A stretch of DNA of 64,000 nt. It comes from Limihaloglobus sulfuriphilus (GTDB lineage: Bacteria > Planctomycetota > Phycisphaerae > Sedimentisphaerales > Sedimentisphaeraceae). The number at the start of each line of letters is the position of its first letter. The stretch's first letter is position 1. Position numbers and translations under genes: made by a program. The notes under the pieces were generated by a model. That model searched no databases and was not told the DNA's origin. It saw nothing but the letters and a program-made list of their open reading frames with translations. Positions 2,509 through 5,586 of this stretch are shown piece after piece. The stretch covers positions 1,488,001 through 1,552,000 of the forward strand of contig NZ_CP019646.1 in the NCBI RefSeq assembly GCF_001999965.1. Direction: 5' to 3'.

Positions 2509-2958
2509 TTAAGCGTAAAACGCGTTTTCGTAGTGGGTTATTTTGGGCTTTTTCTTTTCGTCCAGAACCACTGTTACTATATCAAATCGTGAGATAAGGT
2601 CGGTGCATTTGTAGCGTTTCTTGAAGAATTTTGCCGATGCGGCAATCTTTCGCTGTTTTTTCCGGGTAACGGCATCAACCGCCCTCCAGAGTCCTTCTTT
2701 TCGGCGGCTTTTGACCTCTACAAAAACAATGACCCCTTCCGGAGTTGACATAACCGCGTCAATCTCGCCGGCTTTGCACCTGTAATTAAGGGCAAGGACC
2801 GAATAGCCCTTGCCCTTAAGGTATTTTACAGCCTTGCGTTCTCCCCATCTGCCCAGCACACGGGTTGAAGAAAGGAGTTTTTTATATGTGGTTTTAAATA
2901 ACACCGGTCTATCTCGTTTTCGCTTGAATACTAAGGACTCTAAGGTCTTTAAAGACAT
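2509..2958 (-). CDS. yraN: YraN family protein (UPF0102, nuclease-like)
   Basis: A 149-residue protein whose body matches YraN: LGRWGERKAVKYL at 35-47, GEID at 64-67 and EVKSRR at 81-86. The latter two form a PD-(D/E)XK nuclease-like active site; the biological role is unsettled. yraN downstream of rplS is a common arrangement. The first ~30 residues are not typical of the family. The ATG lies inside a 9-bp tandem array and shares one base with the stop of the upstream four-helix-bundle gene, so the leader seems to have been added by that insertion. An internal GTG near codon 19 could be the ancestral start, but its ribosome binding site is poor. Confidence 0.9.
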   Translation of the reverse strand: MSLKTLESLVFKRKRDRPVLFKTTYKKLLSSTRVLGRWGERKAVKYLKGKGYSVLALNYRCKAGEIDAVMSTPEGVIVFVEVKSRRKEGLWRAVDAVTRKKQRKIAASAKFFKKRYKCTDLISRFDIVTVVLDEKKKPKITHYENAFYA

Positions 2959-2966
2959 TAAAGACT
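2931..2966 (+). repeat. 9-bp tandem array, left boundary of the four-helix-bundle element
   Basis: Four consecutive degenerate 9-mers on the plus strand: CTAAGGACT, CTAAGGTCT, TTAAAGACA, TTAAAGACT (consensus YTAARGWCN). The array contains both the stop codon of the four-helix-bundle gene and the start codon of yraN. It matches the array at 3554-3589 when that one is read on the other strand. Confidence 0.85.
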
Positions 2967-3536
2967 TTTGCTTTGCTGCTTCCTGACCTGCTTTCTGATA
3001 CCAGTCATTTTTTCTCGCATTCCACCTTCATCGAGAAATTTTGCTTCAAGTGCTTTAAGTTGGCGAAACAGCAGGTAATCGGTCTGTTTTATGAGGATTA
3101 TCGCCATATTAGCGATTTTATCGGGAGGACGAGTAGTAACCATTGCCATAAAAAAACGGCTATCATTATGCTCCCGGCCAAGTTTCCGCATCGCCTCAAA
3201 TTGTGCTGATTTTTCCTGCCATTGCAAGTGCCCGCGAGTTCTCAAATAGTCTTCATAGTCAATAAGCAGCTCCTGCAAACTCGCTTTTGCGACATTGATC
3301 AGCTTGATCTCAAACTCACTGGATGTTGAAGAAACGGAGGAACCTTCGGCTATATTTTGCTTGCCGCTGCGAGCCGCCTGTATCATTTGGTCAACGGTAC
3401 GGTCACTTTTTTGCAGAAAAAGGGTACAGAAATAGTAGGTTATGTCGTAGATCGCCTCGGCCTTTTGATAGCTTATTAAAGATTTGAAATTCCCCTGCCG
3501 CGGTATAAAACCATCCTGATTTGCTATCCTTTTCAT
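2958..3536 (-). CDS. Four-helix-bundle (S23 / 23S rRNA intervening-sequence type) protein
   Basis: A 192-residue, mostly helical protein. The family signature is visible: YQKAEAIYDITYYFC at 23-37, QMIQAARSGKQNIAEG at 50-65 and KASLQELLIDYEDYLR at 84-99. These proteins form small helical bundles that oligomerise. Relatives are encoded in 23S rRNA intervening sequences, and others (Avd) help diversity-generating retroelements; no enzyme activity is established. The longer form here, with a C-terminal extension rich in Lys and Gln, fits the 'suffix domain' variant. The gene ends inside the left 9-bp array. A short inverted repeat (ATGGT/ACCAT, 3535-3550) overlaps its start codon. Confidence 0.88.
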   Translation of the reverse strand: MKRIANQDGFIPRQGNFKSLISYQKAEAIYDITYYFCTLFLQKSDRTVDQMIQAARSGKQNIAEGSSVSSTSSEFEIKLINVAKASLQELLIDYEDYLRTRGHLQWQEKSAQFEAMRKLGREHNDSRFFMAMVTTRPPDKIANMAIILIKQTDYLLFRQLKALEAKFLDEGGMREKMTGIRKQVRKQQSKSL

Positions 3537-3553: not shown

Positions 3554-3589
3554 AAGGTCATTAAGGACCTTAGAGCCCTTAATGACCTT
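3554..3589 (+). repeat. 9-bp tandem array, right boundary of the four-helix-bundle element
   Basis: Four 9-mers: AAGGTCATT, AAGGACCTT, AGAGCCCTT, AATGACCTT. Several units are close to palindromic (AAGGACCTT). Read on the minus strand they give TTAAGGTCN-like units, matching the array at 2931-2966. It starts 17 bp upstream of the four-helix-bundle start codon, so it lies in that gene's leader. Confidence 0.85.
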
Positions 3590-3601
3590 AATCTTATTGA
3601 C

Positions 3602-3970
3602 TTACTTAGCAATGGTGTGGGTTGTGTGCCTCTGGCGAAGCCTAACAGCCTTGCCGCTGCGTTCGCGAAGATAAAACAGTTTGGCACGGCGGACTTTACT
3701 GCTTCGAATGGCTACAACATTAACTATGTTGGGCGAATGAAGCGGGAAAATACGCTCGACTCCCTCGTCGGCGATGAAACGCCTTACGGTGAATGTCTCA
3801 TTGATACCGCGGCCCTTACGGGCAATCACGATACCGCTGAATATCTGAATACGGGTTTTGTTGCCTTCCTTGATGCGGCAATGCACTTCGACATTGTCGC
3901 CAACTTCAAAGTACGGCACCTGCGTCTTCAAGCTCTTGCTTTCAACTGCATCTAAAAGTTCAGTTTTCAC
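3602..3970 (-). CDS. rplS: 50S ribosomal protein L19
   Basis: A 122-residue L19, normal size. Recognisable blocks are the N-terminal EVGDNVEVHCRIKEGNKTRIQ and the later FSGIVIARKGRG, VRRFIADEGVERIFPLHSP and KLFYLRER. L19 sits at the 30S-50S interface. The start is set at GTG because AGGAG lies 7 nt upstream and the N-terminus then matches the family. A longer frame reading back into trmD has no family support. It is 19 bp downstream of trmD, in the classic rpsP-trmD-rplS order. Confidence 0.96.
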   Translation of the reverse strand: MKTELLDAVESKSLKTQVPYFEVGDNVEVHCRIKEGNKTRIQIFSGIVIARKGRGINETFTVRRFIADEGVERIFPLHSPNIVNVVAIRSSKVRRAKLFYLRERSGKAVRLRQRHTTHTIAK

Positions 3971-5081: not shown

Positions 5082-5163
5082 TTTTGATTCCTTTTAAATG
5101 GATATATAAATTAATTTCGCATTAGAGGCCCAATGCCTCAGCGAACACGTTTATCTAATTTAG

Positions 5164-5268
5164 TTAGGAATTAGGAATTATAACGAATCGGCTTTGCCGA
5201 TATACAAAATTGTGAGCGAAGCGAACTCCGCAATTCTTAATTCCTAATTCTTAATTCTTAATTCTTAA
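5164..5268. mobile_element. MITE-like 105-bp repeat with 7-bp terminal arrays
   Basis: Left end: TTAGGAA, TTAGGAA, TTATAAC (5164-5184). Right end: five units TTCTTAA, TTCCTAA and three TTCTTAA (5234-5268), the same 7-mer in inverted orientation. Between them is a 5-bp stem TCGGC-TTT-GCCGA (5188-5200) and a GAGCGAAGCGAACTC segment with internal symmetry. It has no coding capacity. It lies between rpsP and an upstream gene and supplies that gene's stop codon. The terminal-array layout resembles the four-helix-bundle element but with a 7-bp period. Mobility is inferred. Confidence 0.65.
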
Positions 5269-5586
5269 TTTCAACGCATAAGCATTGATAAATATCGCGA
5301 AATTCGCCCTGTCAACGCCGGCATCATCGGCTATCCGCTCGATCTGCTCGTCGCTAAGAGCCGCGACATTCCGCTTTTCTTCACTTGTCATTATAGCTAC
5401 AGCCCTTTTGAGCTGCTGATATTCCGCTCTTGTCGGGCAGCCCAGCATACCCGGCTGTGAGGTGCCGAGATTATCGGCAAAATTACGCCGGTAAGCAAGT
5501 CCATACTCATCATCAACATGCTCACCAACCCGTTCAAGATATTCGTCTATCGTCATTTTAATCAGGCCGGCAGTCTCGGCCGGCAT
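5251..5586 (-). CDS. Conserved-looking hypothetical protein between ffh and rpsP
   Basis: A 111-residue acidic, helical protein that I cannot assign. No signal peptide, membrane segment or cysteine motif is visible. A second in-frame ATG at codon 11 (5556) begins MTIDEYLERVGEHVD and may be the true start; neither start has a good ribosome binding site. A GCCGGC inverted repeat lies between the two. The last codons (LRIKN and stop) are read from the 7-bp array of the MITE-like element, so the natural C-terminus may have been replaced. Co-directional location in the ffh-rpsP operon argues for expression. Confidence 0.6.
   Translation of the reverse strand: MPAETAGLIKMTIDEYLERVGEHVDDEYGLAYRRNFADNLGTSQPGMLGCPTRAEYQQLKRAVAIMTSEEKRNVAALSDEQIERIADDAGVDRANFAIFINAYALKLRIKN

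Follow-up and report, generated by a model that had tools for sequence, protein, structure and literature searches.

A gene-less insertion bounded by inverted heptamer arrays upstream of rpsP in Limihaloglobus sulfuriphilus, probably of an array-bounded class of elements

What is a 105-base sequence with inverted 7-bp arrays at both ends, and how did it come to lie between a conserved open reading frame (ORF) and rpsP? The sequence occupies positions 5164-5268 of the window, by which we mean the whole 64-kb stretch of DNA analyzed here, taken from the 3.87-Mb, single-contig genome of L. sulfuriphilus. A preliminary description of this stretch had called the sequence a MITE-like repeat and had likened it to a neighboring, gene-bearing element that is also bounded by short-period arrays. 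To understand its origin, we compared the locus with those of relatives, with other copies in the same genome, and with similar arrays in other phyla.

Inverted heptamer arrays enclose a noncoding interior

TRF identified a left array, (TTAGGAA)2.4, at 5164-5180 (plus strand) and an inverted right array, (AATTCTT)5.6, at 5232-5270 (plus strand). The inverted arms of 17 nt are complementary at 88-94% in several registers. With up to two mismatches allowed, TTAGGAATTAGGAA matches five times in the window, every time within the 105-bp element, compared with an expectation of 0.64 and a maximum of three in any of 100 shuffles. The element strand has a fold energy of -16.6 kcal/mol versus -7.9 for shuffled sequences (z = -3.7), and none of 200 shuffles folded as well. 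Together, the TRF arrays, the arm complementarity, and the fold confirm that the inverted TTAGGAA-type heptamers are real.

The noncoding interior (5181-5231, plus strand) holds one hairpin, ATCGGC-TTT-GCCGAT, at 5187-5201 and, beside the right array, one motif, TGTGAGCGAAGCGAACTCCGC, at 5211-5231, which is common to several other copies in the genome at 85-92% identity by blastn. Two inner stems had been described here; the first is a clean hairpin, but the second, formed by the motif, is weak. As had also been described, the ORF list contains no ORF inside the element, and an Rfam search returned no match. Each heptamer unit carries TAA or TAG on both strands; since 7 is not divisible by three, three successive units are enough to close all frames.

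The element interrupts the 3' end of a conserved ORF

The genes are ordered ffh-ORF-rpsP-trmD on the minus strand, and the element lies outside the 23S rRNA gene, between rpsP and the conserved 111-aa ORF that follows ffh (5251-5586, minus strand). In about 25 relatives, the ffh-rpsP spacer does not contain the element. Where these relatives have a full-length flank, the ORF typically ends with ...FINGYALxCKRVS* (xCKRVS*-type), and next comes a conserved rpsP leader consisting of AAACGTGTTTCGTGA, a hairpin, and AAATTGATTATA. In the window, the right array provides the final codons of the ORF and its stop, giving the end LKLRIKN* in place of the original C terminus, and the rpsP leader (AAACGTGTTCGC followed by a hairpin; 5082-5155, minus strand) picks up again past the left array, downstream of the insertion point.

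The hexamer TAATTT is present at 5156-5161 and again at 5266-5271 (both plus strand). Excision from one TAATTT to the other, with one copy kept, closes the gap and restores an ORF end of ...FAIFINAYALKLDKRVR*, like the ends in relatives. These comparisons show that the 105-bp element was inserted where the conserved ffh-rpsP spacer ORF has its 3' end. The two hexamers are a possible target-site duplication and are graded no higher because the 6-bp repeat is AT-rich, shares bases with the right array at its end, and may be due to chance.

The sequence has strong hairpin potential, and heptamers near start or stop codons have been proposed as translation regulators (PMC4679880), so we considered whether it is a regulatory device, such as a terminator, an attenuator, or a translational coupler, between the ORF and rpsP. 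This explanation is extremely unlikely given that the spacer in relatives lacks the element and has its own conserved leader hairpin. Unrelated short-array sequences at or near the same place also argue against it: G009 (L045) carries a different insertion of this kind at the same gene end upstream of rpsP, and G010 carries a (CATTCTG)n-type array upstream of rpsP. Domestication of the element after its insertion is possible.

Two observations concern the flanks themselves. The rpsP leader with its hairpin (5082-5155, minus strand; L042-L070) is conserved throughout the order, has no Rfam match, and could be a ribosomal-protein leader. The ORF at 5251-5586 resembles the SRP54 signal-peptide-binding domain (PF02978; E = 5e-4), a match that falls short of the curated cutoff.

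Related arrays are abundant in this genome and vary by whole units

A blastn search of the element against its own genome, the check proposed in the preliminary description, returned 106 matches, so second copies exist, and they are not always placed inside a different, known type of element. A three-unit pattern matched 84 times in the genome, had no match in four genomes of the same family, and matched once each in two of 54 other relatives. For many arrays, an ORF's stop codon lies within the array or right beside it (at 289911, 595921, 601238, 1291834, 2098604, 3041885, 3250246, and 3251953). Two further spacers, 3056713-3057220 and 3251954-3252194, have the same layout, with an F array past the stop of one gene and an R array ahead of the start of the next, and contain other nested repeats. 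Many of the arrays in the genome are single and unpaired, and near-identical copies differ in array length by whole units. No TTARGAA element with a gene was found in this genome.

Similar dynamics are seen between congeners in genus g28. Two genomes, G037 and G095, carry an element with an IVP gene just past the stop codon of an hlyD-like gene, and their arrays differ by 42 bp, or six units (6 x 7). In the same hlyD-like place, G093 carries an element that has no gene and whose inverted heptamers are different. Variant units are in register between the left and right arms of several elements, which fits with pairing of the arms.

Gene-bearing counterparts occur between the same arrays in other phyla

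When public genomes were scanned for runs of four TTARGAA units, at least 119 loci were identified; those listed come from Bacteroidota, Cyanobacteria, Spirochaetes, Verrucomicrobia, Acidobacteria, Patescibacteria, and others. Among the matches listed, unique inverted partners within 200 bp were arranged F..R in 26 cases and R..F in none (p = 3e-8). The interiors of gene-less elements among these matches are unlike between genomes, which indicates a shared architecture rather than one family of copies.

The preliminary description had predicted a four-helix-bundle gene between the same 7-bp arrays, and such genes were found. A profile built from IVP genes (PF05635, a four-helix bundle) was run over the 119 loci listed, and an IVP gene between TTARGAA arrays was found in three genomes. 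In Bacteroides sp. 519 (L131), the gene (ATG at 2353) lies between arms at 2285-2314 and 2738-2767. About 1 kb off, a gene-less element (3835-3960) has a left arm identical to that of the gene-bearing one over 30 nt, TTAAGAGTTAAGAATTAAAAATTAAGAATT; the variant units thus follow in identical order in two left arms 1.5 kb apart. In the second genome (L187/L345), the IVP gene has a long TTAAGAA array on one side and an inverted array, which is degenerate, on the other; in the third (L346, reached via L140, a Spirosoma MAG), it lies between degenerate TTAAGAA-type units and a run of about nine TTCCTAA units. The L131 protein matches the Avd model weakly (E = 1.4e-3), and the solved chain nearest to the L187 IVP is 2rld, which was deposited with five chains. 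A blastn search of a plasmid collection returned only array-to-array matches in unrelated taxa, and no cargo was seen in the two that we inspected.

These data bear on two further explanations. The arrays might be ordinary heptamer satellites of the STRR type that arise by slippage in spacers, their inverted pairing and association with genes being incidental. Arrays of heptamers have been described from cyanobacteria, Beggiatoaceae, and Bacteroidota (PMC4679880), and the whole-unit length variation between near-identical copies and the many unpaired arrays described above are what satellites would show. We regard this explanation as unlikely, since close pairs among the matches listed are strictly F..R (26:0), unit order is preserved between the two Bacteroides arms, and relatives have sites without the element; the excess of arm complementarity within loci over cross-locus pairs and the link between period and cargo, both described below, count against it as well. 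Alternatively, a telomerase-like or terminal-transferase-like repair process might extend broken ends by 7-nt units and join them with filler, producing F..filler..R with no mobile element involved. This would account for both the fixed polarity and the unrelated interiors, but it leaves unexplained the interior motif common to copies in this genome and the regular presence of IVP and GxxExxY genes, each with its own period, and we consider it scarcely credible.

Array period tracks cargo

To return to the reading of the 105-bp sequence as one of a class of array-bounded elements, we examined the gene-bearing loci of such a class, which were drawn from the best-scoring matches and in part from MAGs. 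IVP genes are present in 85 of 98 relatives, with a maximum of 14 per genome, and are absent from all 14 control genomes. Their flanks are inverted copies of each other, near the gene at both sides. Inverted 7/8-bp arrays bound 43 of 50 IVP loci, compared with 2 of 27 rpsP control loci (Fisher p = 8e-12), the rpsP flanks being coding, which limits their value as a control. Pairs of mismatched flanks serve this purpose better. Against the 95% level set from such cross-locus pairs, the inverted-repeat score was higher for 21 of 26 IVP loci in relatives and for 22 of 24 in array-bearing genomes of other phyla, the latter genomes having been picked, for both the flank and the period tests, for their TTARGAA arrays. 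GxxExxY genes (PF13366, PDDEXK_3) likewise lie between inverted arrays at 35 of 48 loci (14/22 and 21/26). Together, the IVP and GxxExxY loci establish that gene-bearing elements bounded by inverted short-period arrays, as the preliminary description had envisaged, are a real and common class. We found no statement of a link between such arrays and four-helix-bundle or GxxExxY genes in the open-access literature.

The period of the arrays tracks the cargo. Among loci with significant arrays, the period was 7/14 or 8 at 23 of 23 and then 21 of 22 IVP loci, and 8-10 at 17 of 18 and then 12 of 13 GxxExxY loci, with 9 and 10 the commonest. A period of 7/14 was found at 37 of 45 IVP loci versus 1 of 31 GxxExxY loci with significant arrays (p = 2e-12). 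In rpsP flanks, the periods were mostly multiples of a codon; one, of 14, was not. Unit sequence and protein similarity were not significantly correlated (Mantel r = 0.09, p = 0.12), and looser inclusion, with one mis-set arm, gave r = 0.16 (p = 0.018); as this correlation is weak or absent, we do not claim co-specificity between protein and unit sequence.

A neighboring element has a different period and a different gene

The gene-bearing element to which the 105-bp sequence had been likened lies 1.6 kb away in the window. It is of a third type ("4helix_suffix"), and its arrays have a period of 9. The gene, encoding a four-helix bundle with a suffix domain (2958-3536, minus strand), scores 66.7 bits against TIGR04258 and 28.9 bits against TIGR02436, and the 9-bp array arms lie at 2931-2956 and, inverted, at 3561-3592 (both plus strand). 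Among TIGR04258 loci, 5 of 18 have significant inverted arrays, and the best period is 9 in all five. We found no solved structure for the neighboring protein. At L293, L296, L307, L309, and L317, TIGR04258 genes are accompanied by inverted 9-bp arrays, mostly of a GGAC-type unit.

The parallel drawn between the two elements therefore holds for their architecture, but their kinship is not supported: the neighbor combines TIGR04258 with period 9, and period 7 goes with PF05635, so that the 105-bp element belongs by its period with the IVP type. The element has inverted 7-bp arrays in F..R polarity, placed within the roughly 1 kb that our definition of the IVP class allows for 7/8-bp arrays, but no ORF of its own, and we infer that it is a gene-less form of that class. 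In our view, the feature is probably a MITE-like member of the array-bounded element class, short and without a gene, that was inserted here. The earlier proposal of a non-autonomous member of such a class thus agrees with the insertion, the relatives elsewhere in the genome, and the IVP-bearing counterparts.

A possible route of insertion and a wider class

How might such an element spread? Its arms would pair into a long hairpin, in single-stranded DNA, as a cruciform, or in the RNA of a read-through operon transcript, a pairing that may be likened to that of 23S rRNA intervening sequences. An oligomer of the four-helix-bundle protein from gene-bearing copies could recognize the 7-bp-periodic stem, by its spacing more than by its exact sequence. 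An enzyme would then copy the element into gene-end and intergenic sites, leaving a short target duplication, and the arrays would afterwards lengthen or shorten by whole units. Because an array has stop codons in every frame on both strands, a gene end interrupted by one would merely stop, which may be why such insertions are tolerated. Movement in trans and a mobilizing enzyme are inferred; no such enzyme was found, and the only reverse transcriptase that we found in the genome, about 140 kb from the element, looks short, truncated, and group II intron-like.

Array-bounded, small, selfish-looking elements are widespread and, it appears, have not been described before. There is an even chance that they form an undescribed class of mobile elements across many phyla, with ends made of inverted short-unit arrays and a unit length set by the cargo (7/8 bp for IVP, mostly 9/10 for GxxExxY, and 9 for four-helix-suffix genes). 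The rRNA intervening sequence would then be a specialized branch, and orphan arrays and gene-less elements would be non-autonomous members or debris. This would offer one explanation for heptamer repeats scattered across unrelated phyla, for two very common kinds of gene to which no role is assigned, "four helix bundle" and "GxxExxY", and for how 23S rRNA intervening sequences arose; the long-standing question of how these sequences move becomes testable.

Relation to known elements

The nearest known relative in kind is the 23S rRNA intervening sequence (IVS) of Coxiella burnetii, which has terminal inverted repeats, an ORF for an IVP/S23p four-helix bundle, and, upstream of this ORF, tandem heptamers (GACAGAT) whose number varies between strains (PMC4990558). 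Both are short, selfish-looking inserts with inverted ends, an IVP ORF, and heptamers; however, the IVS sits in 23S rRNA helices and is excised by RNase III, whereas the array elements lie in spacers of protein genes and carry an array at either end, and some of them lack a gene. PF05635 also resembles Avd of diversity-generating retroelements in sequence and structure (PMC10053308), but no reverse transcriptase, template, or variable repeat was found next to the array elements.

As a tandem, intergenic heptamer array detected by TRF, the 105-bp element also qualifies as an STRR. Such repeats in cyanobacteria, Beggiatoaceae, and Bacteroidota (PMC4679880) share its period of 7, intergenic location, all-frame stops, and patchy distribution over phyla; they differ in that published descriptions present them as direct arrays and propose that they act in regulation. 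Descriptions of STRRs as inverted ends of elements, of their insertion, or of a linkage to cargo were not found in the open-access literature.

MITEs are similarly short, noncoding, and multicopy, with inverted ends, all of which is true of the 105-bp element, and they too appear to depend on gene-bearing relatives. The 105-bp element differs in its ends, which consist of iterated units whose number varies, and in having no known transposase partner. It might be a MITE derived from a conventional insertion sequence, its arrays being degenerate terminal inverted repeats, which would account for its size, its inverted ends, the 6-bp direct repeat, and the many partial copies in the genome. We nevertheless judge this derivation very unlikely, as there is no fixed terminal sequence, the iterated units vary in number and differ among elements, and the gene-bearing counterparts examined hold IVP or PD-(D/E)XK-like genes rather than a transposase.

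Finally, REP elements resemble the array elements as short intergenic palindromes, and several are nested in other copies in the genome, but they are defined by a tetranucleotide tag and a single hairpin (PMC3733652); by that definition, the 105-bp element, which has arrays and no GTAG/CGTC-tagged palindrome, is not a REP. In G000, GTAG-tagged, REP-like palindromes (GGCAAGCG-TCCC-CGCTTGCC and others) are found in array-bounded spacers at 3056600-3057300 and 3250180-3250420. G000 also contains three similar multi-kb repeats (2852074-2857996, 3313867-3319185, and 3630204-3635843); all three carry one and the same ORF of 212 aa and numerous heptamer arrays belonging to several families, and they differ in the number of units.
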